Assembly: GCA_016786585.1 (NCBI GenBank) | Contig: JAEUUI010000008.1 | Location: 62,001-126,000, forward strand | Direction of reading: 5' to 3' | Source of the DNA: Cyclobacteriaceae bacterium | GTDB taxonomy: Bacteria; Bacteroidota; Bacteroidia; Cytophagales; Cyclobacteriaceae | Length of the DNA stretch: 64,000 nucleotides | Shown: one piece after another, positions 10,104 through 42,256 of the stretch | Numbering within the stretch: position 1 is the stretch's first letter | Layout: each line of letters starts with the position of its first letter | The notes under the pieces: generated by a model | The model's database searches: none | What the model was told of the DNA's origin: nothing | Seen by the model: the letters and a program-made list of their open reading frames with translations, nothing else | Program-made: the position numbers and the translations under genes

Positions 10104-10240
10104 GATCGTTAGTTTTTAATTTTGACGTAAGACTTGAGACGTAAGTCTTAAGACATAGGATGGAAAATTTAAGACTTGATTGTCTATGACCTGGATATTG
10201 AACCCGGAACGTTAAATTTTGAACCTCCACAAACTCAGTG

Positions 10241-10303
10241 CTCAATACTCAATACTCAATACTCACTACTTATTACTTACTACTTACTACTTACTACTTC
10301 TTG
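10241..10303. repeat. degenerate heptamer tandem tract
   Basis: Nine consecutive 7-bp units: CTCAATA three times, CTCACTA, CTTATTA, CTTACTA three times, CTTCTTG. The tract supplies the stop codon of the minus-strand DUF1801 gene. A shorter rc-type stretch of 7-mers (ACGTAAG-like) lies at about 10124-10152. Together they occupy most of the spacer between the two minus-strand genes. Confidence 0.85.
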
Positions 10304-10683
10304 CTTTTCTTCGATTGCCGAATCAAGTCCCGCGTTTCATTTTCCTTTATTCGCTCTTTTACAATCCGTTTGATCAGTGCTGCGGGGAGGGGCTTTTCCG
10401 GTGTGAATTGAATTGTTCCCTTTGCCACCGTGAATCCTTTCAGATTTTTTTCGTTTTGCAGGATAGACGAGCTTCCCGGAAAGAAACTGCAATGTTTCTT
10501 GAATGCCCCGAAGTACACCAGTGGCCCTTTGTATTTATAAGCTGGCATTCCATAACTAATGCTTTCTTCAGCCTTAGGAGCTGCGGCTTTAATCTGAGCC
10601 CTGAGTGTTTCAAGTGCTTTGCGGAACGCTGGCGGTTGAGCCTCCAGGTATGCTTCTACCGATTCGAATTGCTGCATTCTCAT
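10294..10683 (-). CDS. DUF1801 (YdhG-like) family protein
   Basis: A 129-residue protein with the DUF1801 layout: QFESVEAYLEAQPP, ISYGMPAYKYKGPLVYFGAF, and KGTIQFTPEKPLPAALIKRI near residues 88-107. The C-terminus is basic (RQSKKSKK). Structure-based relatives resemble a frataxin-like/iron-chaperone fold, but a role is unproven. It follows the SRPBCC gene by one base, so the two form an operon. Confidence 0.9.
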   Translation of the reverse strand: MRMQQFESVEAYLEAQPPAFRKALETLRAQIKAAAPKAEESISYGMPAYKYKGPLVYFGAFKKHCSFFPGSSSILQNEKNLKGFTVAKGTIQFTPEKPLPAALIKRIVKERIKENETRDLIRQSKKSKK

Positions 10684-10684
10684 A

Positions 10685-11221
10685 TCAAATGGTGTTTTCG
10701 AGGATGTTTCTCATATTCTGTAAACTTATCTGCATATCGCGGTGAAGCATCTTTCCCATAAACAGGTTCATAATGTTCATCGGGTATTTGCTTTTGCCTG
10801 CCATGCTCCACGTTACGCGTGTATCCTCACTGCCTGACGGTTCAGCTTTCATGGTTACGTATGACGTTCCCTGGAACGGTCGGATGAACCGGATCTCGGT
10901 ATTCAAAGTATTGTCGCGCAATGCCGTGATCTCCTGTGCACCGGCACCCACTTTGTTATCGGTACTGTCCCATGCGTAAATAAATCCGGGTGTGCCGTCA
11001 GTTCCGGTGAGAGTCTTTTTCATGTTCGGATCGGCCATCACCCACTTACTATAGTGTTCCTGGTTTCTAACCAGTTTAATGTAATTGAAAACCTCCGGTA
11101 CACGTTTGCTGATTGTCACCTGTTCTTCAATGTGATAATCCTTCTTCACAAACAAGGCAAGAATCAGTGGTAATGCGATAATCGCAGTAATAACAAGCAG
11201 AATAATGAATAACGTGTTCAT
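10685..11221 (-). CDS. membrane-anchored SRPBCC (polyketide cyclase-like) protein
   Basis: A 178-residue protein with an N-terminal membrane helix (about residues 3-25) followed by a polyketide-cyclase/SRPBCC domain (HIEEQVTISKRVPEVFNYI, then YSKWVMADPNM and FIYAWDSTDNKVGAGAQEI). Members are small ligand-binding proteins; the membrane anchor is usual for this subgroup. It is the first gene of a two-gene operon with DUF1801. Confidence 0.9.
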   Translation of the reverse strand: MNTLFIILLVITAIIALPLILALFVKKDYHIEEQVTISKRVPEVFNYIKLVRNQEHYSKWVMADPNMKKTLTGTDGTPGFIYAWDSTDNKVGAGAQEITALRDNTLNTEIRFIRPFQGTSYVTMKAEPSGSEDTRVTWSMAGKSKYPMNIMNLFMGKMLHRDMQISLQNMRNILENTI

Positions 11222-11327
11222 AATAGTTACTTCGGTGTGAGTTGTGTTCTTTTACTGATACAAAATTATCGTGCCCTGTTAACTTCGGGCGGGTGTGTAT
11301 GCGCCAACGAGTGGGGGCAACGCGACT

Positions 11328-13003: not shown

Positions 13004-13414
13004 TTACTTCTTCTGACCGAGCGAAAACCAGTTGCCCGAGTCGTCCGCAAACAACGCCTCATAACCGTAAAACTCCTTGGTAGGCGGCTTGTGAAACACA
13101 ACGCCTTTTGCTTTTAACTCCTCGTAGGTTGCCTGCAGATCGTTGCACTCGAACACTCCGAAGCCGAACGTACCCTTCTTAACCAAGTCGCGCATTTTTT
13201 CTGCCGCACCATCTTTGAACAGCATTCCGTCAGCGATCGCCATCAGCGAAATCTCGAGCTCGGGTTGCTCAGGCGGACAAACCGTAAGCCACCGCATGCC
13301 GGGACCCATCGGGGCATCGGTGTGAACGGTAAAGCCAAGTTTGTTTACATAAAAATCGTAAGCACTGTCCTGATCCAGAACGAAAATGCTTACATGATTC
13401 ATTCGTGTGATCAT
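13004..13414 (-). CDS. VOC family protein
   Basis: A 136-residue VOC protein: MNHVSIFVLDQDSAYDFYVN, LGFTVHTDAPMGPGMRWLTV, then GVVFHKPPTKEFYGYEALFA and DDSGNWFSLGQKK. The length and two-module architecture match the glyoxalase/bleomycin-resistance family. It is the distal gene of an operon with an AraC-type protein and a TIG lipoprotein. Confidence 0.9.
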   Translation of the reverse strand: MITRMNHVSIFVLDQDSAYDFYVNKLGFTVHTDAPMGPGMRWLTVCPPEQPELEISLMAIADGMLFKDGAAEKMRDLVKKGTFGFGVFECNDLQATYEELKAKGVVFHKPPTKEFYGYEALFADDSGNWFSLGQKK

Positions 13415-13480
13415 GTTTTAGTAATTGTTTTTGTAAAGATGCAGCAAGGATAACCCAGCGGCTTCTCGAAAATTGCTTTT

Positions 13481-13891
13481 TTAATTCCAGCCGTATTGGC
13501 TGGCAAAGCAGGCCGGGATAAACTCCAGCGGAGCGGTGCGGATTTGTTCTTCGCGCGCCAGGTAGATGCGCTGATATTCGGAAGGAGAGAGGCGAACGTA
13601 TTTTTTGAATAGCGCAGTGAACGATGTAAGACTTTCAAACCCTACTTCCGTGCAGCTTTGCGTAACCGTCAAACCCTTCTGAAGCAGAAGCTTGGATTGC
13701 TCAACGCGCACGCTGATCAGGTATTGATGCGGGGTTTTACCGTAAATGGATTTGAACAGGCGGATGAAATGGAATTTCGAAAAGTACGCTTCATCGGCAA
13801 TGTTATCCAGGTCGATGGCTTCGCTATAATGCGCATCAATAAACAGTTTGCTCTGAACAACTCGTTTGTATATGTAAACTTTACTTGTCAT
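13481..13891 (-). CDS. stand-alone AraC-type DNA-binding protein
   Basis: A 136-residue protein that is essentially only the AraC C-terminal DNA-binding domain: IDLDNIADEAYFSKFHFIRL (first HTH), KTPHQYLISVRVEQSKLLL linker helix, and VTQSCTEVGFESLTSFTALF (second HTH), ending SPSEYQRIYL. No effector domain is present. The start overlaps the stop of the upstream lipoprotein gene by four bases, implying coupled translation. It probably regulates the operon that includes the downstream VOC gene. Confidence 0.9.
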   Translation of the reverse strand: MTSKVYIYKRVVQSKLFIDAHYSEAIDLDNIADEAYFSKFHFIRLFKSIYGKTPHQYLISVRVEQSKLLLQKGLTVTQSCTEVGFESLTSFTALFKKYVRLSPSEYQRIYLAREEQIRTAPLEFIPACFASQYGWN

Positions 13892-15141
13892 TGGCTGATA
13901 GCCATGCCCTTCACATTCGTGTCTGGTTGATCATTAAGCGTTTGTAGGGTGTTATTAACTGAATAAAAAGGTATGAGGTGGTTTTCTATATTCAGGTATC
14001 CCGTCATAATGATGTCTTCATTGATAACAACAATTTTCCTGATAAAGCCAGGAGTCCCCGCATTAAACGGTCCTTCCTGTACCACTTCGTTTTTCCAAAA
14101 CCTCGGAAAAAATGTTCCGGAGATTTTCTCATAGCCGGCTACATAAATATCCGTTCCCGCTATATCCATTGAGTATGCCTGGGCCTGGTTCGAACCGGAG
14201 ACATTTTTAATTACCCCGTTCTTCCAATACTTGATCGAAAAGATTGGGGCGGAGCCAACGGCAAATGCTAAAACATATACATCATCGCCATTCGTTTTAA
14301 TGTCTTCCGCAAAGGCTTCGTCATCGATAGCAAGGGGATTTTCAATACCATTTTTCCAGTACCGGGGCACGTATTTCGAGCCATCAGAAACGCTACCTGA
14401 GAAATATACATCAGGACCCGCAAACGCAATATTACTTGCATATCCATCGGCCTCTTCATTAAGATAGGTTAATGCTCCATTTTTCCAGTAGGCTGCATAC
14501 GAATTACTGCCCGAGTTACCTGCCACATAAATGTCGCCTTCATGAATAGCAATCGCATGTGTAGCTCCTGTAATGCCGGGCGACAATTCGTTCAATTCTT
14601 TATTCTTCCAATATACCGGACCGTTACTTGTGTTACCTGTGATGTACGTATCAGTTCCGGAGATGGCGATTGAGGTGCATGAAATCGATACGGAACCGTC
14701 AGTTATATCGTCAACCACGTTGTTTCGCCAAAGTTTAACTTGGTTTTTCCCATCAACTAACGCTTCAAGCGCAAGGGCTATATCGTAGTAGCGGAAAGAT
14801 TCTGGAGAAATAGCGTTGTCTGAATTTTTGACTTTCACCGATATTGGTCCCGGGCTGGCATTGCCTGGAACGATCGCAACGAGGTTGTCAGCGGTGGCGG
14901 CTGTAACCATCGCCTCAACACCATTGAAATAGACTTTGTTGTTCGAGAGATTATTACTGAAGTTCATCCCCACAATCGTCACTTCCATACCCGCGGCACC
15001 AGCGTCAGGCGTTATGCTGCTGATGATTGGTGTTGCAGCCTTTGGTTCCGGATCATTATTACCGCAGGAAACAAGTAATCCGGCAACCAGGGCCGGGATC
15101 AAGTTATAAATGGATAAACACCGTTTCAATGTAATGTTCAT
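13888..15141 (-). CDS. IPT/TIG-domain lipoprotein with propeller-like repeats
   Basis: A 417-residue lipoprotein with a signal peptide ending in the lipobox LLVSC. An IPT/TIG domain follows (TPIISSITPDAGAAGMEVTI, about residues 40-115). The rest is a repeated YWKNG module (for example PVYWKNKELNELS, AAYWKNGALTYLN, PRYWKNGIENPL, IKYWKNGVIKNVS), spaced about 45 residues and likely forming a beta-propeller. It faces the periplasm or outer surface. Genetic coupling to an AraC-type regulator (ATGA overlap) is unusual for such a surface protein. Confidence 0.85.
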   Translation of the reverse strand: MNITLKRCLSIYNLIPALVAGLLVSCGNNDPEPKAATPIISSITPDAGAAGMEVTIVGMNFSNNLSNNKVYFNGVEAMVTAATADNLVAIVPGNASPGPISVKVKNSDNAISPESFRYYDIALALEALVDGKNQVKLWRNNVVDDITDGSVSISCTSIAISGTDTYITGNTSNGPVYWKNKELNELSPGITGATHAIAIHEGDIYVAGNSGSNSYAAYWKNGALTYLNEEADGYASNIAFAGPDVYFSGSVSDGSKYVPRYWKNGIENPLAIDDEAFAEDIKTNGDDVYVLAFAVGSAPIFSIKYWKNGVIKNVSGSNQAQAYSMDIAGTDIYVAGYEKISGTFFPRFWKNEVVQEGPFNAGTPGFIRKIVVINEDIIMTGYLNIENHLIPFYSVNNTLQTLNDQPDTNVKGMAISQ

Positions 15142-15197
15142 AAATTGGGATAAAATCAAATGTAACTGATTTTACTAACTCCAATTAATGAATTTTC

Positions 15198-15668
15198 ATG
15201 AGTTCAATCAAATACACTATCCGGCAAGCAACACCATCCGACAAACCAATCCTCCTTCAATTCGAGCAGGGGGTAATTGAAGCTGAACGTCCGTACGACC
15301 CAACCCTCACGCGCGAAAACACAATCTATTACGATATCGATGAAATGATTCGCGCTCCGCACATCGAATTGCTGGTAGCGGAAGTGAATGGCAAGCTCGC
15401 AGGATGTGGCTACGCGCGCATCGAATCATCAAAGCAGTATCTCCAACACCGGCAACACGCATACTTGGGCTTCATGTATGTTACACCCGAACACCGGGGC
15501 AAAGGCATCAATCAAAAAATCATAGAAGCGTTAAAAGACTGGGCAGTGGGGCAGGGCGTTCACGAGCTTCGGCTGGAAGTTTATGTGCAAAACGAATCAG
15601 CCATCAAAGCCTACGAGAAGATCGGCTTCGTCCGGCACATGTATGAGATGCGGAAATCCGCTTTATAG
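15198..15668 (+). CDS. GNAT family N-acetyltransferase
   Basis: A 156-residue GNAT enzyme: N-terminal YTIRQATPSDKPILLQFEQG, the acetyl-CoA loop at LGFMYVTPEHRGKGINQKII (R/QxxGxG/A-type P-loop), then LRLEVYVQNESAIKAYEKIG. The acyl acceptor is unknown. The heptamer tract that follows starts inside its stop codon. Confidence 0.92.
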   Translation: MSSIKYTIRQATPSDKPILLQFEQGVIEAERPYDPTLTRENTIYYDIDEMIRAPHIELLVAEVNGKLAGCGYARIESSKQYLQHRQHAYLGFMYVTPEHRGKGINQKIIEALKDWAVGQGVHELRLEVYVQNESAIKAYEKIGFVRHMYEMRKSAL

Positions 15669-15787
15669 TTAATAGTTATTTGCTATTTCAAATTACAATT
15701 CACGGTTAACGATTAACGGTTAACGAATAACGTATAACGTATAACTAATAGCGTTTAACGTTTTGCTATTAGCCGATAACAATTAAC
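15665..15787. repeat. degenerate heptamer tandem tract
   Basis: About seventeen consecutive 7-bp units in one phase: ATAGTTA twice, TTTGCTA, TTTCAAA, TTACAAT, TCACGGT, TAACGAT, TAACGGT, TAACGAA, TAACGTA twice, TAACTAA, TAGCGTT, TAACGTT, TTGCTAT, TAGCCGA, TAACAAT. It begins in the stop codon of the GNAT gene and fills the whole spacer. Confidence 0.9.
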
Positions 15788-16472: not shown

Positions 16473-16563
16473 AATCCCTAATCCCTAATCCCTAATCCCT
16501 AATGCCTAATGCCTGATACCTGATACTTGATACTTGATACCTAATGCCCAATCCCTAATCTCC
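16473..16563. repeat. degenerate heptamer tract abutting a start codon
   Basis: Exactly thirteen 7-bp units: AATCCCT four times, AATGCCT twice, GATACCT, GATACTT twice, GATACCT, AATGCCC, AATCCCT, AATCTCC. The ATG of the next gene follows with no spacer, so the whole 5' untranslated region, including the ribosome-binding position, is repeat DNA. Confidence 0.92.
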
Positions 16564-17448: not shown

Positions 17449-17536
17449 AATTATTCAACATTCAAAGTTCAAAATTGCTCGCGACTTTAAATGACGAACT
17501 TGAAACTCACTCAACTCTTAACGGTGAACTTTAAGC

Positions 17537-17585
17537 CTTAAACGTTGAATCTTCCCTAACCATTAACGTTTAACGATTAACGCTC
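17537..17585. repeat. degenerate heptamer tract
   Basis: Seven phased units (CTTAAAC, GTTGAAT, CTTCCCT, AACCATT, AACGTTT, AACGATT, AACGCTC), preceded at 17457-17480 by TTCAACA/TTCAAAG-type units. The tract enters the next minus-strand gene and encodes its last residues and stop (VNR plus stop). Confidence 0.85.
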
Positions 17586-17953: not shown

Positions 17954-18013
17954 GGTGTAGGTTTTAGCAGATTTAAAGATAGCGATTGAATTTAAAACTG
18001 TGAATCTCTTCAA

Positions 18014-18104
18014 GTTCAAAATCCAACGTTCAAAATTCACCTCAAACCTTAAACGTTGAACCTTAAATCTGGAATCTCACATCTTACATCTCACGTCTTA
18101 ATTT
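18014..18104. repeat. degenerate heptamer tract
   Basis: Thirteen phased 7-bp units, from GTTCAAA, ATCCAAC, GTTCAAA, ATTCACC through TTAAACG, TTGAACC, TTAAATC to TCACATC, TTACATC, TCACGTC, TTAATTT. It lies between two minus-strand genes and supplies the stop codon of the downstream-located gene (18098). Confidence 0.88.
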
Positions 18105-19060
18105 TTATTTTCAACTTCCACCTTCTTGACTTTGATCCACTGAAACCTCTTTTCTTCAGTGATGGTGTCCAACCTGTCAAACAACCGATCCATGTCTTCC
18201 GTTGGCACCATCAGGCTTGAGATATGCAATTGCATGTTATCGTTTCGGATTAATGTAGTGTAATCAAAATCACCCCATGGTGCGTTAGTTCTGTTCGTGG
18301 TTACAACTCTTTTTACAAAATCTGATTTGTTAAATATTTGCTTACCTCCCGGAAAGGTGACGATAAAGGTATTGTCATGTTTGCGGAAATAGATCTTCCA
18401 GCCTTTATTTTTGTTTATGTGATTAACGGTTAAGATTACGGCCGGTGCGGCCAGTGCTAAGAATATGGATTGAAGAAGAAGTAACACCGGTAGGTTTGCG
18501 TTCGGTGGAAAGCGCAGAAACAAGAATGCCATGATTCCAATAATGCCTATGGACATAAAAAGCTTCTTGAAAACTTTCCAGAACGTTATTGTGTATACAT
18601 ACTCTTCCCGGACAACCTCTCGTGAATTTCTGGTTTTCAGTCTCACAAAATAGTTCATTAAGTCAAGATGCCATCCTGTTTTGTAATACTGTTCGGCAGT
18701 CTTCATCAATGCGTGCAGCGAATCCCGTTCACCGCGGTCAAATAACCGTATTAACTCGTATACCCCTTCATAACCTTTAACAATAGACGTCCGTGACGAC
18801 CGCCATACTTTGCGCTCCATGAGATACACCACAAACTGGCCATCTTCCGCCCAAAAAATTGAAAGGATGTCGTTTTTGAAATTTCTCAGGTTAATCGATG
18901 GATTGGCATGCTCCTCAATTATTTTAGAACCCTTGAGCGTTTCATTTACCCAGTCGAACTGTTTAACTTCCTCAATCGCTTCCGAAAGTGTCACACTTTG
19001 TTCGTCCGTGTATTCATTTATTTCAAATTCCGGAAACTGTTTTCGTAATGCTAAGCCCAT
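18098..19060 (-). CDS. hypothetical protein with two central membrane helices
   Basis: A 320-residue protein of no family I recognise. Residues 1-165 are soluble and include an acidic N-terminus (FPEFEINEYTDEQ). Two adjacent membrane helices lie about 167-215 (IGIIGIMAFLFLRF and LLLLQSIFLALAAPAVILTV), followed by a soluble C-terminal domain with FRKHDNTFIVTFPGGKQIF, reminiscent of bPH-like strands. The shape suggests an inner-membrane protein with cytoplasmic ends. Confidence 0.75.
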   Translation of the reverse strand: MGLALRKQFPEFEINEYTDEQSVTLSEAIEEVKQFDWVNETLKGSKIIEEHANPSINLRNFKNDILSIFWAEDGQFVVYLMERKVWRSSRTSIVKGYEGVYELIRLFDRGERDSLHALMKTAEQYYKTGWHLDLMNYFVRLKTRNSREVVREEYVYTITFWKVFKKLFMSIGIIGIMAFLFLRFPPNANLPVLLLLQSIFLALAAPAVILTVNHINKNKGWKIYFRKHDNTFIVTFPGGKQIFNKSDFVKRVVTTNRTNAPWGDFDYTTLIRNDNMQLHISSLMVPTEDMDRLFDRLDTITEEKRFQWIKVKKVEVENKN

Positions 19061-19082
19061 AGATGTTTAAAGCTAATCCGAA

Positions 19083-19138
19083 AATCTGAATTCGAAATCT
19101 CAAATCTTAAATCTCCCGTCTTAAGTCTAACGTCTCAC
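19083..19138. repeat. degenerate heptamer tract
   Basis: Eight phased units: AATCTGA, ATTCGAA, ATCTCAA, ATCTTAA, ATCTCCC, GTCTTAA, GTCTAAC, GTCTCAC. The tract runs into the DUF4386 gene and encodes its terminal RR and stop. Confidence 0.88.
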
Positions 19139-21059: not shown

Positions 21060-21073
21060 ATAGACGTTAGTAG

Positions 21074-21171
21074 CAAGTATCAAGTAATTCATTATTCAGA
21101 ATTCTAACTTCTAACTTCTGAGTTCTGAATTCTCACGTCTTACTACTTACGTCTAACGTCTAGCTACTTAA
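21074..21171. repeat. degenerate heptamer tract between convergent genes
   Basis: Fourteen phased units: CAAGTAT, CAAGTAA, TTCATTA, TTCAGAA, TTCTAAC twice, TTCTGAG, TTCTGAA, TTCTCAC, GTCTTAC, TACTTAC, GTCTAAC, GTCTAGC, TACTTAA. It encodes the last residues (LSS) and stop codon of the minus-strand cyclase. Confidence 0.9.
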
Positions 21172-22257
21172 GGCAACCGAGAACAACTCCATCCTTTTAT
21201 CCCTTCCCTTAAGTTCTGCTTCCCCGAGCGATTTAAGTATAAAACCTTCATCCGGAGTAAGTTTCTTGACCAGGTCGACCGAAAGGAGAATGTCCACTTC
21301 GTACCGGTTGCATAGCGATTGAATTCTGGCTGTAGTGTTCAGCACATCGCCCGTGAAAATGATCTCCCGTTTAATCACCCCAATTTCACCCGTAGTAACG
21401 GTGCCCGCGTGCAAGCCCGCTTTAAACGTTGGTGCTACACCGAAGCGCGACAGGTATTCGGCACGGTGTGCGTTCAGCGTTTCCTGTAAGGCAAAGAAAC
21501 ATTTGATGCAGGCATTGTTTTGCAGGCCTGCTTTGAGCGTCCAGGTGATCACCACCTCATCGCCCACGTATTGGTATACGTCACCAGAGTGGTTAATGAT
21601 GGGCGTGGCGAGGTGCGCAAAGTATTGTTGCAGCATTTCGAAATAGCGGCCGTGGCCCATCTGTTCCGCATGCGTGGTTGATGAACGCATATCGAGGAAC
21701 ATAAAAATGCGTTCTTCTTCTTTGGGCGTATGGTAGCGGCCCGAAAAGAAATTCGTGATTACGCCATGGCCGAGGTTTTCATACACTTCGTGAAAGAACA
21801 GCGAGATGCCGATAATGCAGGCGATGTAGAATACCACGCTCCAGAAGGCAAAGTTGTTGAAAAAGATAAATGTATTGTTCACCACCATACTGTCGAATAT
21901 GCTTGCCTGAAGCGCGAAGGCATTGAAGAACAGCGAAACCAGCAGCAGAAAACCGATGATGAAGCCCAGGTAAATAGCAGTTTTAAAAACCACCTTTTGA
22001 GTAAAGCTGCGCTTGCGGAAAATTTTGTTCAGGTACAGAACCTCAATCGTGCCGATGATCAGTCCGCACACCAGCGCCATAAAAGCAGTGATGAAAACCG
22101 TGCCCGTAAAATTATATGGGTTTCCGGTGGCAGGGTAGTAGGTAAATGTACCCAGCAGGCCGCGCTCCAGCAGTGAGTAAATGAAACTAAACAACAGCCA
22201 GATGAGCCCGAACGGGGCGATGCGTGCAAGATTGCGTTTCGTTTGCCGGGAGAGCAT
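21160..22257 (-). CDS. membrane-bound class III adenylate/guanylate cyclase
   Basis: A 365-residue protein. Residues 1-165 contain four predicted membrane helices. The C-terminal half is a class III cyclase domain with metal-binding Asp in IFMFLDMRSSTTHAE, the second Asp in QYVGDEVVITW, the GLHAGTVTTGEIG loop and the transition-state residues in FTGDVLNTTARIQ (Asn and Arg present). All catalytic positions I can check are intact, so it is probably active. The ATG at 22257 is preferred to an upstream TTG. It converges on the Crp/Fnr gene. Confidence 0.92.
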   Translation of the reverse strand: MLSRQTKRNLARIAPFGLIWLLFSFIYSLLERGLLGTFTYYPATGNPYNFTGTVFITAFMALVCGLIIGTIEVLYLNKIFRKRSFTQKVVFKTAIYLGFIIGFLLLVSLFFNAFALQASIFDSMVVNNTFIFFNNFAFWSVVFYIACIIGISLFFHEVYENLGHGVITNFFSGRYHTPKEEERIFMFLDMRSSTTHAEQMGHGRYFEMLQQYFAHLATPIINHSGDVYQYVGDEVVITWTLKAGLQNNACIKCFFALQETLNAHRAEYLSRFGVAPTFKAGLHAGTVTTGEIGVIKREIIFTGDVLNTTARIQSLCNRYEVDILLSVDLVKKLTPDEGFILKSLGEAELKGRDKRMELFSVALSS

Positions 22258-22382
22258 GAAGGAAAGATACAACAGCGCACGAACGCGCAAAAATTAACCC
22301 CTCGAAAAAACTTTCAGTCTTTTCATCCGTTTTCATCCGCTCGTTTGTCAAAACAACATTATTCAAACAAAAATAATGTACC

Positions 22383-24104: not shown

Positions 24105-24217
24105 TTCGAAACTCAAAATTCTAAATTCGTAATTCGTAATTCGAAACTCGAAATTCCTGAAGCTCACATCTCACGTCTCACTACTTACGTCTTACTACTT
24201 ACGTCTAGTGTCTAAAG
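24104..24217. repeat. degenerate heptamer tract
   Basis: Mostly phased 7-bp units: ATTCGAA, ACTCAAA, ATTCTAA, ATTCGTA twice, ATTCGAA, ACTCGAA, then after a short break TCACATC, TCACGTC, TCACTAC, TTACGTC, TTACTAC, TTACGTC, TAGTGTC. It fills the spacer between convergent genes and reaches the stop of the minus-strand membrane gene. Confidence 0.88.
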
Positions 24218-24861: not shown

Positions 24862-24905
24862 CCCGCTCATTTGCGAATAAGGGTTTTGAGCGTATATTAG
24901 ATTAA

Positions 24906-27779: not shown

Positions 27780-27828
27780 TAGACATCCGGAACGCTAACC
27801 GTTGCCAACATCATCGTGCCTAAAGTCT

Positions 27829-31625: not shown

Positions 31626-32030
31626 ATGAAAACTGTCGACTATTCGAAATCGCTGGAGGAATTGGAGAACGACTATTGGGGGAAGCCGGAGTTTGAATCT
31701 CATGTGGTCAAAACTTGTCATTCCATGAGGAAAAAGCCCCTTAAAGAAATAACAGTCGAAGAATTGCGCCTCGTAATCGGGCAAGGTTTTAGTCTCCAGT
31801 ATTTGATTCCTATGGCAATTGAATTACTAAAGAGCAACATACTCGCGGAAGGAGATCTCTACGAAGGCGATCTGCTGACAAGCGTAATCTCAACACCAAC
31901 GTTCGACTACTGGAAAAATAACAAGCATCACTGGTTAACAGTTAAACAACTGATCGATCAAAACAGCAATAGGATCACCGATAAAATCATTCTTTCAAAA
32001 ATTCCCGCCTTCGAGAAAATTCACAACTAA
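31626..32030 (+). CDS. contact-dependent growth inhibition immunity-like protein (CdiI type)
   Basis: A 134-residue protein matching the CdiI-type immunity family: SLEELENDYWGKPEFESHVV, then CHSMRKKPLKEITVEELRLV, GQGFSLQYLIPMAIELLKSN, and EGDLYEGDLLTSVI. Relatives neutralise CDI toxin domains. No CdiA- or Rhs-like toxin gene is nearby, so it appears to be an orphan. It follows the MORN lipoprotein by 13 bases and probably shares its transcript. Confidence 0.85.
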   Translation: MKTVDYSKSLEELENDYWGKPEFESHVVKTCHSMRKKPLKEITVEELRLVIGQGFSLQYLIPMAIELLKSNILAEGDLYEGDLLTSVISTPTFDYWKNNKHHWLTVKQLIDQNSNRITDKIILSKIPAFEKIHN

Positions 32031-32052: not shown

Positions 32053-32490
32053 CCCGGCAACCTTGAACCTTAAACCTTAAACCTTAAACCGTAATTCGTA
32101 ATTCGTAATTCGAAATTCGTCATTCTAAAATCTCCCGTCTCACTACTTACTACTTCCTACTTACGTCTACCTCCAACCTTAAACCCGGAACCTTAAACCT
32201 TGAATTTGAAACAAGAGCGGTAGGAGAAACTCCCATGTCAAACTGACGCGGAGAAATTTCTACAACTCACTCCGGGCGCAGAAATAGAAATTGTATATTC
32301 GATTACCCCGAACAGAGAACCAACAACCTTGAACTGTAACTCAAACCGGAAACCGGCAACTGGCAAACCGGAAACCGTAACTCGTCATTCTAAATTCGTC
32401 ATTCGTAATTCTAAAATCTCAAATCTCACATCTTACTACTTACGTCTAACGTCTAATCCCTAATGCCCAATCCCTAATCCCCAATACCCA
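32053..32490. repeat. two composite heptamer tracts around a unique core
   Basis: The left tract (about 32053-32203) has AACCTTA, AATTCGT, ATTCGTC and ACTTACT units. A non-repeat core follows (about 32204-32330) with no convincing gene. The right tract (about 32330-32490) has AACCGGA, ATTCGTC, ATCTCAA, ACGTCTA and finally AATCCCT/AATGCCC units. The ATG of the next gene lies inside the last AATGCCA unit. Confidence 0.8.
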
Positions 32491-33078
32491 ATGCCAACAC
32501 TAACCCTGCCTCCCTCCAAACCAAAACTCACCTCCGAACGACTCCGGAAAGAAATCGCACCCTTCAACATCGACCCCGTAAAATATCCCCTCATCCTTGT
32601 CGGCATCAGGGGCTACTACCGCAACACCATGGGCGAGAAAGGCAAGAACGACCGCGGCATATACGACGATGCCCTCTTCATCATTACCCCCAACGCCACC
32701 GTGGCCTTCAACGCCAACACCGATCCTTCAGTTACCAAAGCCGGCCGCGCAGTGTTGCAGCCAGGCGTGTACTACGCCCATAAGTTCGATACCCACTACG
32801 GCACCGCCTCGCAATACCCCGCCATCTGCCAGCGGTTGGGTAACGTAACTATTCTACGCGATGGCCAGCAGCACACCGAGCAGGGCAGCAAGTACGGCAT
32901 CAACATCCATAAAGGCGGCAACACCACCACCAGCAGCAGAGGCTGCCAAACAATTCCGCCCGCACAGTGGGAAGCCTTCTACCAGTTGGCCAAAAGCGAA
33001 GCCCAGCGACTGTACAACAGCGAGTGGAACAAGCACGTCATTCCCTATGTGCTGATTGTCAACACAGGGCAGTTTTAA
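32491..33078 (+). CDS. putative L,D-transpeptidase/YkuD-like cell-wall protein
   Basis: A 195-residue protein, Pro-rich at the N-terminus. Toward the C-terminus [20 protein letters not shown] resembles the H-xn-SxGC active-site motif of L,D-transpeptidase-type (YkuD-like) domains, with His and Cys placed to act together. It also has [20 protein letters not shown] and [20 protein letters not shown]. No signal peptide is visible, so export may be atypical. The family is uncertain; the catalytic idea rests on the single motif. Confidence 0.6.
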
Positions 33079-33170: not shown

Positions 33171-33350
33171 TCCTTCCGGCCTGTCCTGATGCCGGCAGGT
33201 CCTCAGGGTTTTAATCCTGATGCCGAAGGCCGTAAGGATTTTAATCCTGATGCCGAAGGCCGTCAGGAGGCCGGGCTTTCCGCTGCAAGTCCTCGCTTCG
33301 CTGCGGGCTTTCCGCTGCAATCCCTCACGCGGTTGAAGATTTCGATAAAG
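33171..33350. repeat. composite intergenic repeat with 30-bp tandem unit
   Basis: TTAATCCTGATGCCGAAGGC starts at 33211 and again at 33241, a 30-bp period; CCTGATGCCGGCAGG precedes it. GGGCTTTCCGCTGCAA occurs at about 33273 and 33305, and the block ends CTCACGCGGTTGAAG. The 403-base stretch 33079-33481 holds only this repeat DNA plus a boundary motif (ACGTTAGCAGC, about 33453). I see no gene in it. Confidence 0.75.
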
Positions 33351-34108: not shown

Positions 34109-35107
34109 ATGGACAATAAAATTCTAGACGGACTAATCGATAATAGTAGATCTGCAATGTATGCAGCGATTGAGGTGCATAATAAGCCGATCTTTCCATA
34201 TCGCTATGAGGTTTGTTCAATTTTAGTTATCAATAGCTGGGAACTGATCCTTAAAGCCTACATACAGATTAATCATCCAGAAATAAAGATTATCGATAAA
34301 GATGGACTAAGTAAACCGTTTGACGACTGTATTGATTTCGTGTTATCCAAAATCGGACCTGACTTCAGGACCACATACGAGAATCTAAAGCATCTTTATG
34401 AGTATCGTTGCAGGATTATTCACTATTACGAAGCAAGAATTGACATAATTCTATTTTCGCTACTAAGCAAAAATGCAGTTTTATTCTATGAATTCCTGCT
34501 TAAGCATTTTAAGATTGATATTTCAGAAGACACGAACTTACATTTGATGCCAATCGGTTTTCGAAGACCTGTTTCACCAATTGACTTTATTAGCAACACA
34601 TCTGAAGTCGCGAAAACGTCAGAGCATGTCCAAGCATTTATAAAAAGTATGGTAGACTCAATACATAGCATGGACAAGGAGGGTATAGAGGACTCTTTTC
34701 TCTTGACTTATAAGATGTCTGTTCTCAATGAGAATAGGATCAAAAACGCTGACATTGTAGCGGCAATCACAAAGAATTCATCTGACGCAACAATTAGTGT
34801 CGACAATGTGCTTGGAAAAATTGAACTGACAGATGATGAAGGCGTAAAAAAGGTGAAAGTGGAAGAAGAATCACTTTACGAGAAATTATATACTGAGACT
34901 TATAACGATGTCATCAAGAAATGTCGAGTGATGTTTTCTGACTTCAGTAAAAATGCTAAGTTCAACAAGATAATGAAAGGACTAAAAGGCAACCCGAATT
35001 TTCATAAATACAGATTTTTGGATGTTAAGAGACAATCTGGCGGGACAAAGGACTATTATACAATTAATGTCTATGACGAGCTCTCTAAGCATTTTAAAGC
35101 GCAGTAG
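34109..35107 (+). CDS. DUF3644 family protein, HEPN-like
   Basis: A 332-residue protein. The N-terminal 150 residues match DUF3644: NSRSAMYAAIEVHNKPIFPY, then SILVINSWELILKAYIQ and a helix pair ending YEYRCRIIHYYEARID. Arg100-xxxx-His105 fits the R-x4-6-H motif of HEPN ribonucleases. The C-terminal half (240-332) is basic and may bind nucleic acid. DUF3644 proteins are frequently seen in defence-rich regions. No methylase or nuclease partner is adjacent. An RNA-cleaving abortive response is a reasonable hypothesis. Confidence 0.82.
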   Translation: MDNKILDGLIDNSRSAMYAAIEVHNKPIFPYRYEVCSILVINSWELILKAYIQINHPEIKIIDKDGLSKPFDDCIDFVLSKIGPDFRTTYENLKHLYEYRCRIIHYYEARIDIILFSLLSKNAVLFYEFLLKHFKIDISEDTNLHLMPIGFRRPVSPIDFISNTSEVAKTSEHVQAFIKSMVDSIHSMDKEGIEDSFLLTYKMSVLNENRIKNADIVAAITKNSSDATISVDNVLGKIELTDDEGVKKVKVEEESLYEKLYTETYNDVIKKCRVMFSDFSKNAKFNKIMKGLKGNPNFHKYRFLDVKRQSGGTKDYYTINVYDELSKHFKAQ

Positions 35108-36462: not shown

Positions 36463-36659
36463 AAAAATCATCCATCAGGCGCCCGAATGTGCGCAGCCTG
36501 AAAATCCAACCCAAAACCCGGTTCAACAAATACAGCCAGAAGAACGTGCCGGAAATTAAACTCTGTGGCGATTGGCTGCAGCATCTTGGCTTCCAGCTTG
36601 GCGCACGCGTAACCGTAACGTCAATGCCCAATCTGCTGATCATCCGCACAACAGAATAG
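36447..36659 (+). CDS. SymE-like type I toxin family protein
   Basis: A 70-residue basic protein (start ATG 36447). KYSQKNVPEIKLCGDWLQHL followed by GFQLGARVTVTSMPNLLII matches the SymE toxin pattern (PEI.L.G.WL...GF..G..V.V). SymE proteins in Escherichia coli are SOS-induced and controlled by an antisense RNA. Here the start codon is embedded in a 15-bp stem with its own leader, suggesting cis control. A longer reading from upstream starts inside the leader and is unlikely. Next is a small exported protein. Confidence 0.82.
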   Translation: MRNDKQKSSIRRPNVRSLKIQPKTRFNKYSQKNVPEIKLCGDWLQHLGFQLGARVTVTSMPNLLIIRTTE

Positions 36660-36700
36660 ATAAAAAGGGAAGGGCCGTTGGCAATAATGATATACGAACA

Positions 36701-37102
36701 ATGAATAAACTTATGATAGTACGGGCTCTGATAACCTTTGCGCTCCTCACGTGTTGTTTCAATGCTTGGGGGCAAGACTCACTTACAGTACGTGGGCAAA
36801 CTTATGTTATTCGAGACCTCCCTTCAAACGCCAAAACGGACCTTCCCTTATATATAATAAAGGCGGATGGCAGAACATGTCAGGTTCCGGCATCAGGCCG
36901 GTTCAAGCGCACCCGACAGTTAAAAAGGGCATTCGAAAAATTCAATGCCGATTTGGTTCAATCCATTGAAGTTATTAAAGGAAAGGACGCAACCGACAAA
37001 TATGGAGCTCTTGGGAAGTACGGAGTTATCGTTTTTAACATGAAGGAAGGTACATACGAAGCACTGCCACGAAAATTGAAAAAAGGGTGTAGCTACCATT
37101 AA
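36701..37102 (+). CDS. small exported protein with a TonB-plug-like motif
   Basis: A 133-residue secreted protein (signal MNKLMIVRALITFALLTCCF, cleavage near AWGQ). The C-terminal half reads LVQSIEVIKGKDATDKYGAL followed by GKYGVIVFNMKEG, matching the plug-domain signature IxxIEVLKGxxAxxxYG..GxxGVI of TonB-dependent receptors. It is far too short to be a barrel. Such orphan plug peptides accompany TonB systems or peptidases in Bacteroidota. Role unknown. Confidence 0.75.
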   Translation: MNKLMIVRALITFALLTCCFNAWGQDSLTVRGQTYVIRDLPSNAKTDLPLYIIKADGRTCQVPASGRFKRTRQLKRAFEKFNADLVQSIEVIKGKDATDKYGALGKYGVIVFNMKEGTYEALPRKLKKGCSYH

Positions 37103-37193
37103 CTATCAACGATTACTAATAACGATTAACTATTAACGACTACCGATTAACGATTAACAATTAACAATTAACGAATAACGGCTACCGATTAAC
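37099..37193. repeat. degenerate heptamer tract
   Basis: About fourteen units of the ATTAACG family (ATTAACT, ATCAACG, ATTACTA, ATAACG with one base missing, ATTAACT, ATTAACG, ACTACCG, ATTAACG, ATTAACA twice, ATTAACG, AATAACG, GCTACCG, ATTAACG). It begins in the stop codon of the plug-like gene. Confidence 0.88.
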
Positions 37194-37330
37194 GAAATAT
37201 CGGAAACCCACTCACGACATCTCGTAACTTCTTCCAAAACAACCGCTAAGTCAACCTCAATTCAGCCATAAATGCCCCGGCACAATGTCTGCGTAAGCGG
37301 AGAGAAAACTCCAGTTAACCAGATAAAACA

Positions 37331-38077
37331 ATGGCATCAAACACAGAAACCGGGCACGCTAAAAACGTAGCCACCTTCGAAGACCTTATTAGTTTTTGCA
37401 CGGCATACGGTGCAACGTACAACCCAACAAAAGCGGCATTAAAAATTCCGGCCCTCACAGCCCAGCTTGTCGCAGCCAACGCAGCCTTGCAAGCGGTGAA
37501 GGTTGCAAAAACCACGTACGACAATGCAACCAACGCCCGCGAAATTGCTTTCAAACCGCTCAAGTCGCTCGCAACAAAAATCGTAAACAGTATTGCAGCA
37601 ACAGAAGCCACTCCCCAAACGGTCGATGATGTGAAGTCAGTCAACAACAAAATCCAGGGCAGGCGCGCAAAGGCTATTGAAAAACCCGGTGCTGAAACAA
37701 TAGCTGCCGATGCCGAACCGGTAAAGATCATCTCCGTTGCACAGCAGAGCTACAACAAAATGGTCGATCACTTCGCGCAGCTTGTGGCAACACTCACAGC
37801 CGAACCAAAATACTTCCCCAACGAACCCGAGTTGAAAGTCGCAGCCCTCAACACCTTGGTGGCCGACCTGCGCGCAAAGAACACAGCCGTTATCAACGCC
37901 ACCACCGCGTTAAGCAACGCGCGCATCGCCCGTAATAAAGTTCTGTATGCTGAAGTCACCGGTTTGCAGCCTGTAGCACAAGCCGTGAAAGTATACGTTA
38001 AGTCCCTGTTTGGTGCGAGAAGCCCCCAGTACAATCAGGTGAGCAAGTTGAAATTCGCAAAACGCCTGGGCGACTAA
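37331..38077 (+). CDS. Ala-rich helical protein of unknown function
   Basis: A 248-residue soluble protein with no signal peptide. It is Ala/Lys/Thr-rich and almost wholly helical (TAQLVAANAALQAVKVAKTT; NTAVINATTALSNARIARNK), with a repeated pattern in the two halves, so it probably forms helical bundles. Bacteroidota genomes often encode one or more proteins of this size and composition, starting AKNVANFE-like. No known function. Confidence 0.78.
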   Translation: MASNTETGHAKNVATFEDLISFCTAYGATYNPTKAALKIPALTAQLVAANAALQAVKVAKTTYDNATNAREIAFKPLKSLATKIVNSIAATEATPQTVDDVKSVNNKIQGRRAKAIEKPGAETIAADAEPVKIISVAQQSYNKMVDHFAQLVATLTAEPKYFPNEPELKVAALNTLVADLRAKNTAVINATTALSNARIARNKVLYAEVTGLQPVAQAVKVYVKSLFGARSPQYNQVSKLKFAKRLGD

Positions 38078-38160: not shown

Positions 38161-38189
38161 TTGTTAGAGCAAGATGTTTTATATAATGA

Positions 38190-38460
38190 GCGATGTTACC
38201 CACGGAACCCGCGATGTTATCCATGGAATTCGCGATGTTACCCATGGAACCCGCGATGTCATCCATGGAATTCGCGATGTTACCCATGGAACTCACGATG
38301 TTATCCATGGAATTCGCGATGTTACCCATGGAATTCACGATGTTATCCATGGAATTAGCGATGTCATCCACGGAATTCGCGATGTCATCCACGGAATTCG
38401 CAATGTTACCCAAGGAATTCACGATGTTATCCATGAAATTGATGATGTTGCGCAGAATTC
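38190..38460. repeat. 21-bp minisatellite, 12 units plus a partial
   Basis: Twelve 21-bp units of the type GCGATGTTAYCCATGGAAYTC and a truncated thirteenth. The first eight alternate ACC and ATC at one position, giving a 42-bp higher-order period. The unit contains CCATGG and GAATTC palindromes. Because 21 is a multiple of three and there are no stops, at least four frames stay open; the minus strand reads as a coiled-coil-like heptad (NIANSMD). Which frame, if any, is translated is unknown. Confidence 0.88.
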
Positions 38461-38590
38461 ATGCTCCTGTGGCATTAGAACCCCCGGCCACTGTGTCAAA
38501 TATTTTTACGAGTTGTTTAGCTTTTTTGCCCTTTCGCTCGGTACGCGCCTTTTAGCTAAATTTGGTAATAGTCCTGACTTCCATTCTTCC

Positions 38591-39331
38591 ATGAAGCGTT
38601 TTCTGATTGGCGTGCTCGCCTTAACCATTAGCTGTTCAAAACCTAAACCTGCGGGAGAAGGCTCGGTATCCGACACCACACGTGCAGATCAACCGGTAGC
38701 CGTCAGGACACCTGAAAACTACTATCCGTCAACCGTGCTGAGAGATACCGTACTAAATGGGCATACCCTGAAATTTCAGCAGATAAGTGAAGAGAGTTTC
38801 AATTCGTTTCTGAAAGTAGCGCACTACACCTCCGAAGTACGCCTGGCCAAAGCCGATACCTATGTCAACAAAGTCGACAGTTGTTTCATTGTCAAACTTC
38901 AGAATCAATCAACCGACTCGCTCTGTAACCAGGATGATGGGGAGTATTTCGAAAAGTATGCGATAAAAGGACTATGGGAAAAACACAGGGTGCTTTGGAT
39001 CAGCTTCGAAAACTGGGAAGAAAATCATGACTTCCTGCTGAGTCTAAAGGATGGTTCTTACCTGATTCTCGGCTCGGACTATGAAATAAATCCCGGAGAA
39101 GACAAAGTGCTCCTCTACTCGGATCTTATAGAAGTCCCCATTTATCCGGGTGGATTAGAGATAAAGAAGATTATAGACGGCACCTTCAGAACTATTTATG
39201 ATCAGCAAATCGACTGGTTAACCATCTCTGATGCCAAATGGCTTTCAGATTCTGAATTTATGATCGCTGCCGGATTCGTTGACGAGTCAGGCATTAAAAA
39301 CAAGGAATGGTTCCGTGTTACAATTGATTAG
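38591..39331 (+). CDS. lipoprotein of unknown function
   Basis: A 246-residue lipoprotein starting MKRFLIGVLALTISCSKPKP (Cys15 in TISC). The mature protein has mixed strand content with RLAKADTYVNKVDSCFIVKL and YLILGSDYEINPGEDKVLLY. The frame is open upstream through the 21-bp minisatellite, but the signal peptide fixes the start at 38591. No family recognised. Confidence 0.75.
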   Translation: MKRFLIGVLALTISCSKPKPAGEGSVSDTTRADQPVAVRTPENYYPSTVLRDTVLNGHTLKFQQISEESFNSFLKVAHYTSEVRLAKADTYVNKVDSCFIVKLQNQSTDSLCNQDDGEYFEKYAIKGLWEKHRVLWISFENWEENHDFLLSLKDGSYLILGSDYEINPGEDKVLLYSDLIEVPIYPGGLEIKKIIDGTFRTIYDQQIDWLTISDAKWLSDSEFMIAAGFVDESGIKNKEWFRVTID

Positions 39332-40180: not shown

Positions 40181-40217
40181 GTACACGTAAATCAACCTTG
40201 CAATAACCCACTTCACC

Positions 40218-41381
40218 ATGAACTACCGCCTTTGCTTGCTGCTTGTTCTCGCAACCATCATTACAACATCCGCACAAAAACCCCGTGCCCGCGACCTCGG
40301 CATTCCATTCGAAGGCACACCCGGCACAAACAACGCCATCACCGATGTGGCAGGCGTAGAGGTCGGCTACAGCACCATCATTTCAGGCGAAGGTAAAAAC
40401 GTGCGCGGCAAAGGTCCGGTGCGCACGGGCGTTACCGCCATCCTGCCGCGCGGCAGAGCCAACAACCCGGTGTATGCAAACTGGTACAGTCTCAATGGCA
40501 ATGGCGAGATGACCGGCACCACGTGGATCACCGAATCAGGCTTCCTCGAAACACCCATCATGATCACCAACACCAACAGCGTAGGCGTAGTGCGCGATGC
40601 TGTACTCAAATGGTTTGTCGATAAAAGCTGGTACCGCGATGACTTCTGGTACACCTATCCCGTAGTAGCCGAAACCTACGATGGCTTCCTCAACGACATC
40701 TACGGCTTCCAGGTAAAAGAAGAACACGCATTCGAAGCACTCAACAAAGCAGCACGCGGTCCCATCAAAGAAGGCAACGTAGGCGGAGGCACCGGCATGA
40801 TGTGCCTCGGCTTTAAAGGCGGTACCGGCACCGCTTCACGCGTATTTAAAATTCAGGACTCCACCTACACCCTGGGCGTACTTGTGCAAGCCAACTTTGG
40901 CGCCAAGCGCAACCTTACCATTGCGGGCGTTCCCGTAGGGCAGGAGTTGAAAGATACATTGAACTCTGTATTCAAATCCGCACCGAGCTATCAGAAAGAA
41001 GGCGATGGCTCCATCATTGTAGTCGTAGCCACCGATGCACCCTTATTGCCGCATCAGCTCAAACGCATTGCACAGCGCGTAGCGATAGGCGTGGGCAAAG
41101 TAGGCGGCAGGGGCGAGAACGGCTCCGGCGACATCTTCCTGGCGTTCTCCACCGCAAACCCCAAAGCATTTAACCGCAGCAGAACCGTACAGGTGCAGCA
41201 ACTTTCCAACGATCAGATCAACCCCTTGTTTGAAGCCACCGTTCAGTCCGTAGAAGAAGCCATCATCAACGCCATGGTCGCAGCCGAAACCATGGAAGGC
41301 ATCAACGGCAACAAAGCCTACGCCTTACCACACAAAAAAGTGATCAGCATTTTAAAGAAATACAACCGACTTAAGCAGTAG
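40218..41381 (+). CDS. P1 family peptidase (DmpA-like N-terminal nucleophile aminopeptidase)
   Basis: A 387-residue exported enzyme with a signal peptide to about residue 19. It follows DmpA/P1 architecture: NAITDVAGVEVGYSTIISGE at the start of the mature chain, GNVGGGTGMMCLGFKGGTGT near 186-205, and the autoprocessing Gly264-Ser265 in EGDGSIIVVVATDAPLLP, where Ser265 becomes the nucleophile. KVGGRGENGSGDIFLAFST supports the family. It cleaves N-terminal residues of small peptides, likely in the periplasm. Confidence 0.93.
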   Translation: MNYRLCLLLVLATIITTSAQKPRARDLGIPFEGTPGTNNAITDVAGVEVGYSTIISGEGKNVRGKGPVRTGVTAILPRGRANNPVYANWYSLNGNGEMTGTTWITESGFLETPIMITNTNSVGVVRDAVLKWFVDKSWYRDDFWYTYPVVAETYDGFLNDIYGFQVKEEHAFEALNKAARGPIKEGNVGGGTGMMCLGFKGGTGTASRVFKIQDSTYTLGVLVQANFGAKRNLTIAGVPVGQELKDTLNSVFKSAPSYQKEGDGSIIVVVATDAPLLPHQLKRIAQRVAIGVGKVGGRGENGSGDIFLAFSTANPKAFNRSRTVQVQQLSNDQINPLFEATVQSVEEAIINAMVAAETMEGINGNKAYALPHKKVISILKKYNRLKQ

Positions 41382-41383
41382 CC

Positions 41384-41560
41384 AGACGTAAGAATTAAGA
41401 CATTAGACGTAAGATTTGAGATATGGGATATGAGAAGAGAGATTTCAGCAATTAGACGATGCATTCTGCATTCTAAATTCTACTATTCTACATTCTAAAC
41501 TCGTAATCCCTAATGCCCAACGCCTAATCCCTAATGCCCAATCCCTAATCCCCAAATTCT
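41384..41560. repeat. composite heptamer tract with both orientations, abutting a start codon
   Basis: The first half has 7-mers of the reverse type (AGACGTA, AGAATTA, AGACATT, AGACGTA, AGATTTG, AGATATG, GGATATG). Then come GCATTCT twice, AAATTCT and ACATTCT, then AATCCCT/AATGCCC/AACGCCT units to AATCCCC and AAATTCT. The TTG start of the next gene begins with the final T. Two units have an extra base. Confidence 0.85.
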
Positions 41561-42156
41561 TGGAAGTATACGACAACATAAAAGCATACCATGCTAAAAC
41601 GCAGAAGGAGTGGCGGGCTTGGCTGAAGAAAAATCATCAGTCAGAAAAGTCTGTTTGGCTAATCATTTACAGGAAGGAAAGTGAAACACCCAGCGTGTAC
41701 TATCCCGAAGCGGTAGACGAAGCCTTGTGTTTTGGCTGGATCGACAGCAAGCCAAACAAACGCGATGCGGAGAGTTACTACCTCTTCTTCGCGAAGCGAA
41801 ATCCTAAAAGCAATTGGAGCAAGATTAACAAAGATAAAGTAACACGACTGATCAAAGCGGGTAAGATGCAACCCGCAGGCCTCGAAATGATTCGCATCGC
41901 AAAAGAAAAAGGAACGTGGACTGCGTTAGACCAAGTAGAAAGTATTACCCTCCCGGACGATCTCAGGATACTCTTTACCCGGAACAAAACAGCGTTTAAG
42001 AATTGGGAGAACTTTCCGAAATCCGCGAAGAGCGGTATCCTCCAATGGATTTTAAATGCTAAGAAACCCGAGACACGCCAGAAGCGAATCGAAGAAACCG
42101 TTGCGCTAGCCGCGAAGAACATCCGGGCAAATAGCTATCCAAAACCTACTCCCTAA
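41560..42156 (+). CDS. YdeI/OmpD-associated family protein
   Basis: A 198-residue protein with the YdeI-like plan: KAYHAKTQKEWRAWLKKNHQ, then EAVDEALCFGWIDSKPNKRD, YYLFFAKRNPKSNWSKINKD, and a C-terminal LQWILNAKKPETRQKRIEET. It starts at a TTG; no ATG is available near the conserved N-terminus. The C-terminal KPTP and the stop are encoded by heptamer repeat DNA. Function not established; relatives are annotated as bacteriocin-protection or OmpD-associated proteins. Confidence 0.9.
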   Translation: MEVYDNIKAYHAKTQKEWRAWLKKNHQSEKSVWLIIYRKESETPSVYYPEAVDEALCFGWIDSKPNKRDAESYYLFFAKRNPKSNWSKINKDKVTRLIKAGKMQPAGLEMIRIAKEKGTWTALDQVESITLPDDLRILFTRNKTAFKNWENFPKSAKSGILQWILNAKKPETRQKRIEETVALAAKNIRANSYPKPTP

Positions 42157-42256
42157 TGCCTACTCCCTAATGCCTAATCCCTAATCCCTAATCCCTAATC
42201 CCTAATCCCCTAATCCCTACTACCTACTAACTACTAACTACTAACGACTAACAATT
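42144..42256. repeat. heptamer tract supplying both convergent stop codons
   Basis: Sixteen units: ACCTACT-like, CCCTAAT, GCCTACT, CCCTAAT, GCCTAAT, CCCTAAT four times, one 8-mer, CCCTACT, ACCTACT, AACTACT twice, AACGACT, AACAATT. The plus-strand gene ends inside it (KPTP, TAA) and the minus-strand gene ends inside it (VSR, TAG). Confidence 0.92.

Follow-up and report, generated by a model that had tools for sequence, protein, structure and literature searches.

What process builds runs of drifting 7-bp words in the spacers between bacterial genes, and keeps them there? The question is raised by a 64-kb stretch of DNA from the Cyclobacteriaceae bacterium GCA_016786585.1 (hereafter the window), which comprises bases 62,001 to 126,000 of C7, a 480-kb contig of a 4.19-Mb genome assembled in 30 contigs. 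An earlier note on this DNA had listed 17 spacers composed of degenerate tandem heptamers. The clustering of such tracts was confirmed in our analysis, and all of those in the window belong to one 32-kb gene island. With a probability of roughly 60%, we consider them to be heptanucleotide tandem repeats born of slippage, perhaps with a replication strand bias.

Heptamer tracts and the island that holds them

Bases 7 positions apart were compared, each identity being scored +1 and each difference −1, and segments reaching a score of 14 were retained. This lag-7 scan of the window gave 18 segments scoring 15 to 71, 1,808 bp in total, all within positions 10,109 to 42,252, compared with a mean of 0.01 segments scoring at least 14 per 64 kb (maximum 15) in 100 first-order Markov simulations of the window. 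Lags 4, 5, 6, 8, 9, 10, 11, 12, and 13 returned no segment in the window, lag 14 returned 18, and Tandem Repeats Finder reported period-7 arrays at many of the lag-7 sites. All 17 spacers of the earlier note lie inside, or at most 13 bp from, one of the 18 segments, and its description of drifting words, of several word families joined in a tract, and of an intergenic position was correct. The segment it had not listed (10,109 to 10,160) has its words in the opposite sense, and its estimate of up to 17 units per tract is too low, as the longest tract (25,613 to 25,798, 186 bp) holds about 26.

The same scan yielded 30 segments in 960 kb of this genome (hereafter the host), 35 in 920 kb of comparison genome G011, and 22 in 400 kb of G004, the latter two being of the same genus. 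In each of the three, lags 4, 5, 8, 10, 11, and 13 gave no more than one segment and lags 3, 6, 9, 12, and 15 no more than seven. The lag-7 excess that the earlier note had expected elsewhere is present both in the rest of the genome and in relatives. By simple calling of open reading frames (ORFs), 29 of the 30 host tracts, 32 of 35 in G011, and 20 of 22 in G004 are intergenic. The tracts consist of head-to-tail 7-bp units far above chance and are mainly intergenic, which are two of the marks of heptanucleotide simple sequence repeats.

Eighteen of the 30 host tracts lie inside the island (10109 to 42252; 40 junctions in a hand-made gene list, 16 of them with a tract) and 12 outside it, a density about 43 times that of the rest of the sampled 960 kb. 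The claim that tracts are absent beyond these limits is true of the window and nearly so of C7, of which bases 1 to 440,000 contain three more, and fails for the genome. Because at least seven of the other host stretches were selected by a search match, this selection if anything raises the outside rate and does not exaggerate the contrast. In G011 and G004, too, a search match had decided the choice of some stretches, and their tract counts do not represent random samples. Tracts stand mostly next to stop codons, with four of five converging and one of five diverging island junctions carrying one.

In the RpoB protein, the host has 82% identity with Algoriphagus, 71% with Flavobacterium, 68% with Chitinophaga, and 65% with a Prevotellaceae metagenome-assembled genome (MAG); it is thus a bacteroidote, with Algoriphagus its closest neighbor among the named genomes compared. 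G011 possesses the island with common backbone genes and different intervening genes; its island has 18 tracts, and the flanking stretches at 775 to 795 and 835 to 855 kb have none. G002 contains parts of the island on separate contigs, with backbone genes partly in common. In G014, homologs of three island or neighboring genes (70%, 62%, and 45% identity, the last possibly not an ortholog) lie within 3.5 kb, without the island. Backbone island genes are about as close to those of G011 as flanking genes are, and the codon usage of 34 of 36 island ORFs is within 2 standard deviations (SD) of the genome, genes at about 28 to 38 kb being somewhat deviant. We infer the island to be a hot spot of long standing.

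Unit turnover and the strand of the words

Unit identity was determined in the 66 tracts scoring at least 16 (27 from the host, 32 from G011, and 7 from G002). It is 0.724, 0.655, 0.594, 0.532, and 0.491 at lags 7, 14, 21, 28, and 35 and falls to 0.370 at lag 70, with a mean of 0.252 at lags that are not multiples of 7; the value of 0.724 is inflated because the tracts were selected on lag-7 identity. Such a smooth decay is as expected from local duplication combined with mutation.

Several orthologous spacers retain a tract though its words or length differ, and unit number differs between sister species (one genome per species), not always by exact multiples of 7. Of four conserved island junctions that hold a tract in the host, three hold one in G011 as well, and the remaining one has other DNA there. 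The mean proportion of shared 7-mers is 0.27 in 15 orthologous spacer pairs (nine spacers, five of which have just one flanking gene in common with G011) versus 0.11 in 72 nonorthologous pairs, and it ranges from 0.17 to 0.43 in seven flanking coding samples. Two of the eight spacers compared between the host and G011 share no 7-mer, and both nevertheless have a tract. The spacer 21059/21160 has a tract in the host, G011, and G002; the host sequence shares no 7-mer there, and G011 and G002 share 0.42. The spacer 42156/42241 is 84 bp long in the host versus 181 bp in G002, the surplus being made of AATCCCT-type words; the 97-bp difference is no exact multiple of 7, and the host has one 8-bp unit. 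Inspected by eye, the left ends are alike between species at some spacers and the right or both ends at others, without a rule of growth polarity.

The C-rich words lie on the positive-skew strand of the contig in 25 of 27 scorable host tracts and 24 of 26 in G011, with ambiguous tracts set aside (three in the host, nine in G011, and six in G004). The rpoB gene, which is normally on the leading strand, is on the positive-skew strand in both genomes. For clusters more than 40 kb apart the agreement is 7 of 7 in the host and 6 of 7 in G011, and for tracts outside the island it is 9 of 10 and 10 of 11. Converging and diverging junctions, where transcription has no net direction, show the same bias (10:2 in the host, 9:1 in G011), as do tracts between lagging-strand genes (3:0 and 2:1), and transcription therefore does not account for it. 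Spacers without tracts are more often G-rich in the sampled host DNA (25 C-rich versus 53 G-rich), opposite to the tracts, and lean slightly the same way in G011 (37 versus 45); with tracts masked, the G011 island has a skew of +0.024. The one-strand bias is strong in these two related, island-sharing species and is probably, though not certainly, tied to replication.

As we envisage it, one or a few 7-bp units would be duplicated during replication by slipped-strand synthesis, whereby tracts would grow and turn over. Point mutations between rounds of duplication would let the words drift and come to differ between species while the 7-bp phase is kept. Tracts would fill the spacers as far as the gene ends and a little beyond, for the most part next to stop codons, and we propose that this pattern arises because repeats growing into genes or promoters are eliminated. 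In the host and G011 the C-rich words are nearly always on the inferred leading strand, which suggests that duplication may be unequal relative to the fork.

A number of observations weigh against slippage or against its link to the fork. Units of 7 bp dominate, whereas generic slippage should spread unit sizes more widely, and some tracts are 77 to 80% alike over 72 to 91 bp across several word families, a likeness that slippage alone does not give. The spacer share of the DNA, about 18% in the island and 15% elsewhere, leaves the island density unexplained. Leading strands were judged visually on the skew of entire contigs or their halves, and the host and G011 are not independent because the island is common to both. 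In G004 the polarity is reversed: only 3 of 16 scorable tracts carry the C-rich words on the leading strand, and of eight clusters seven are lagging and one is tied. The G004 bias matches its spacer background (14 C-rich versus 25 G-rich). The strand rule is thus not general, and a universal placement of the C-rich strand on the leading side is contradicted; the tract words of G004 (AACAACT) also differ from those of the host. The local skew of C9:200,001-220,000 (+0.024, two tracts) disagrees with the assigned strand, that at C14:265,001 and C30:495,001 is near zero, and one G011 cluster (C1:250,674) violates the rule. Finally, the host island with tracts masked has a skew of −0.032, and its nontract spacers one of −0.107, C-rich on the plus strand, unlike spacers elsewhere; this C-rich DNA could be decayed tracts or reflect a local composition bias.

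Copying, recombination, and other possible origins

Since long tracts resemble one another and the order of word families is directional, copying between spacers may add to slippage. In a stronger form, a composite heptamer element would be copied from spacer to spacer, by gene conversion or by a process acting on single-stranded DNA at the fork, and then altered by slippage. The tract at 32343-32495 matches parts of those at 32059, 25613, 24106, and 21069 at 77 to 80% identity over 72 to 91 bp, through several families and with equal lengths on both sides (80% over 91 bp in the case of 32059-32204). Word-family transitions show more directionality than in 1000 sets of randomly reversed tracts (91 versus 61.2 ± 7.9, largest value 95), but the families for this test were picked after viewing the tracts and their patterns overlap. 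An unrelated dispersed repeat (43,780 to 44,087) likewise has copies of uniform orientation on each of C14, C23, and C30, but not on C9. For copying, neither an enzyme nor a terminal structure is known, and no genome-wide search for one was made. We regard copying as the chief source of the tracts as unlikely, and still less probable is a dedicated process with a fixed 7-nucleotide step, which would move in one direction relative to the fork and rewrite the spacers of a preferred region in ordered words, with a vocabulary and polarity specific to each lineage.

The island is a mosaic between species, and 12 of its 16 tract junctions are broken in G011, as might be expected if tracts marked seams of gene insertion and removal in the manner of cassette linkers; a role of long arrays in rearrangement has been proposed (MacGregor 2015, PMC4679880). 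However, tract-free junctions are broken equally often (21 of 24, p 0.41 by Fisher's test, and 14 of 16 counting only gaps of at least 40 bp), and the three-gene block at 13,004 to 15,159, missing in G011, is free of tracts at both edges. Pfam showed no site-specific recombinase in the proteins submitted to it, which cover part of the island ORFs. With tracts showing no association with synteny breakpoints, an origin in integron-like cassettes or recombination seams lacks support, and we rate it improbable.

The position of the tracts beside stop codons also fits terminators, mRNA 3′ ends, or arrays of binding sites, and the stretch at 21069 to 21162 folds into a strong hairpin (z −6.0). The other 13 of the 14 folded stretches have z values of −1.2 or above, ordinary or weaker than shuffled sequences, which speaks against terminators and structured RNA. 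The AATCCC tracts could form G-quadruplexes on the opposite strand, as Rehm et al. (PMC4692102) found for similar repeats, but a G run in every unit is confined to tracts of this type, and the CTTACTA, AATTCGT, TAACGAT, and AACCTTA families lack it. In both the host and G011, moreover, words stay on one strand beside oppositely pointing genes (the 3:0 and 2:1 ratios above), and an Rfam search of the window returned three tRNAs alone, outside the island. A function in RNA or as DNA sites is somewhat more doubtful than the recombination seams.

We also rejected a role of the tracts as stop-codon buffers. Stop triplets are in excess (1,101 versus 895 ± 35 after permutation of heptad columns), but so, to an equal or greater degree, are other triplets. 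Nor did plus and minus stops show the polarity that this role predicts: 23 of 46 tracts were positive, with a mean shift of 0.034 versus a null of −0.004 ± 0.015. Import of the island as one block from a heptamer-rich genome would agree with its absence between homologous genes of G014 and with its far higher tract density but is very improbable, given the mostly ordinary codon usage, the closeness of its backbone genes to G011, and the different tract words of the three species.

Individual tracts, neighboring features, and known heptamer repeats

The individual tracts, all defined by lag-7 score, are given here from left to right with strand and score. At the left border, GACGTAA-type words at 10109 to 10160 (minus, 15) run in a sense opposite to most others and are followed by CTCAATA/CTTACTA words at 10234 to 10306 (plus, 48), at the 3′ end of the minus-strand gene 10294-10683; this second junction is conserved, and G011 and G002 also carry a tract there. 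The TAACGNT words of 15662 to 15763 (score 45) have C and G almost balanced, and no strand was assigned. AATCCCT, AATGCCT, and GATACCT words form the tract at 16473 to 16560 (plus, 61), at the site of which G011 has other, gene-like DNA without a tract. Next come a tract between converging genes at 17510 to 17582 (plus, 16) and two flanked by minus-strand genes, a multifamily one at 18012 to 18125 (plus, 33) and one at 19082 to 19138 (plus, 16). When the spacers are compared, the left part of the latter is alike in the host, G011, and G002, and the right part has different words in each. The tract at 21069 to 21162 (plus, 39) lies between converging genes and ends in the TAG stop of 21160-22290.

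In the tract at 24106 to 24214 (plus, 40), AATTCGT passes into CTCACAT and then CTTACTA, and a tract between diverging genes is found at 24799 to 24862 (plus, 31). The longest (25613 to 25798; plus, 71) proceeds from CCCTAAT through TTAAACC, CCGG, ATTCG, CTCAC, and CTTAC to CTAAC. Further tracts lie at 26960 to 27011 (plus, 21) and, with AATCCCC/AATGCCT words, at 27820 to 27883 (plus, 35). AACCTTA, AATTCGT, CTCAC, and CTTAC words make up 32059 to 32204 (plus, 65), and a similar family order with AATCCCT at its end is seen at 32343 to 32495 (plus, 68). TAACGAT words at 37095 to 37195 (plus, 44) start within the end of ORF 36572-37102. The tract at 41384 to 41555 (plus, 43) has GACGTAA-type words at its left, then ATTCTAC and AATCCCT, and that at 42145 to 42252 (plus, 71), between converging genes and overlapping both gene ends, has AATCCCT and then CTACTAA. 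The pairing of opposite-sense words with words of the usual sense after them, an inverted arrangement, occurs in 10109-10306, 41384-41555, and C7:4513-4581.

Other repeats are present nearby. The dispersed intergenic repeat at 43780-44087, of the GTCATTGCGAG type, has 16 further matches in the genome (eight on the minus strand of C14, five on the minus strand of C23, one on the plus strand of C30, and one on each strand of C9). About three 30-bp near-palindromic units of the TCCTGATGCCGAAGGCCGTCAGGA type occupy a spacer at 33184-33268, with related pieces at other places in the genome and genus. A 21-bp unit (3 × 7) is repeated twelve times at 38190-38440, ahead of a probable lipoprotein gene, which probably starts near 38,588; a longer ORF (38174-39331) runs through this repeat. 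The island genes include those for a CdiI_3-type immunity protein (31626-32030), a DUF3644 protein that matches the candidate defense model PDC-S19 (34109-35107; E value 2.8e-76), and a 248-amino-acid protein (37331-38077) without a significant Pfam match. Relatives of the last were found in the host on C14 (two) and C30 and in G011 on C1, C3, and C4. Four of them adjoin heptamer tracts (C30:504700 in the host; C1:27024, C4:227621, and C4:908764 in G011), and the C14 pair and C3:1136213 of G011 do not.

Beyond the genus, the heptamer class is widespread, since AATTCGT arrays of more than three units were found at no fewer than 116 places in the genome collection, and the 80 matches listed come from cyanobacteria, Bacteroidota, Ignavibacteria, Anaerolineae, Acidobacteria, Akkermansia, Vibrio, and others, with many MAG contigs. 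The word AATCCCYAATSCCYAAT is present in 3 of 39 genomes in a search of relatives and in 12 of 395 sampled across the phylum, counting the host in both. A vocabulary universal across phyla was rejected: around the 80 listed of at least 116 matches, few words are common beyond the seed AATTCGT, namely 5 of 39 with cyanobacteria (2.4 expected), 5 of 17 with other phyla (1.35 expected), and 1 of 17 with Bacteroidota (1.2 expected). With the BLAST low-complexity filter on, a 461-bp stretch holding two tracts had no match in a phage search and one weak Dolichospermum match in a plasmid search. In Chitinophaga eiseniae (G040) and a Prevotellaceae MAG (G046), AATTCGT arrays are often facing inverted pairs, separated by some tens of bp up to about 160. 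The pattern is highly abundant in some genomes, with 583 matches in Chitinophaga solisilvae, 362 in the Prevotellaceae MAG, and 210 in an Akkermansia MAG. Heterocystous cyanobacteria have short tandemly repeated repetitive (STRR) sequences, which are likewise heptamers in spacers and are spread genome-wide, whereas the tracts studied here are concentrated in one island; the AATTCGT array of our tracts is also found in Nostocales.

Known heptamer repeats extend to this phylum, and the claim of the earlier note that Bacteroidota have no described counterpart falls, because TAACTGA direct repeats, mostly intergenic, have been reported in Beggiatoaceae, Cyanobacteria, and five Bacteroidetes (MacGregor 2015, PMC4679880). 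Two of these five have further heptamer repeats in TAACTGA spacers, Elizabethkingia anophelis has “larger assemblages of heptamer repeats,” TAACTGA indels between two Cyanothece strains are mostly in 7-nucleotide steps, and eight Microcystis sets between stop codons all have one orientation (PMC4679880). Our tracts resemble them as 7-bp intergenic direct repeats, with other heptamers mixed in at some spacers. That survey follows one fixed word, whereas our tracts join many drifting families, and the parts of MacGregor 2015 available to us describe neither a dense cluster within a single island nor a strand bias linked to replication. TAACTGA is exactly doubled in 1 of the 66 tracts, which are thus not repeats of that type, nor do they typically stand just upstream of start codons as TAACTGA does in BOGUAY. 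The parallel drawn by the earlier note with cyanobacterial heptamers holds: AATCCCC read on the other strand is GGGGATT, which is repeated in Nostoc and belongs to the GGGNATC and GGGGA(C/T)T heptamers of Xanthomonas and Nostoc, which are likewise spacer-enriched and often near stop codons (Rehm 2015, PMC4692102). In the available text of that study, the xanthomonad heptamers have no leading or lagging preference and no favored chromosomal region; unlike the GGGNATC type, our tracts include several families without G runs. SPADE (PMC6344855) found heptamers the most abundant in prokaryotic intergenic regions, with no clue to function; local clustering, drift, or a strand rule, as seen here, is not given in the accessible part of that report. 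Titles and abstract openings of the literature searched, with subscription journals thinly covered, held nothing on replication strand bias or island-like clustering of heptamer tracts.

The tracts are a feature of a known kind, here unusually dense, multifamily, and one-stranded. Tandem heptamers are reportedly the most abundant periodic repeats of prokaryotic intergenic DNA, of unsettled origin and function, and an island of 18 tracts, retained by a sister species with several positions inherited and the words changed, and with a one-strand bias that may follow replication, offers a compact site at which to measure their origin and any control by the direction of the fork.

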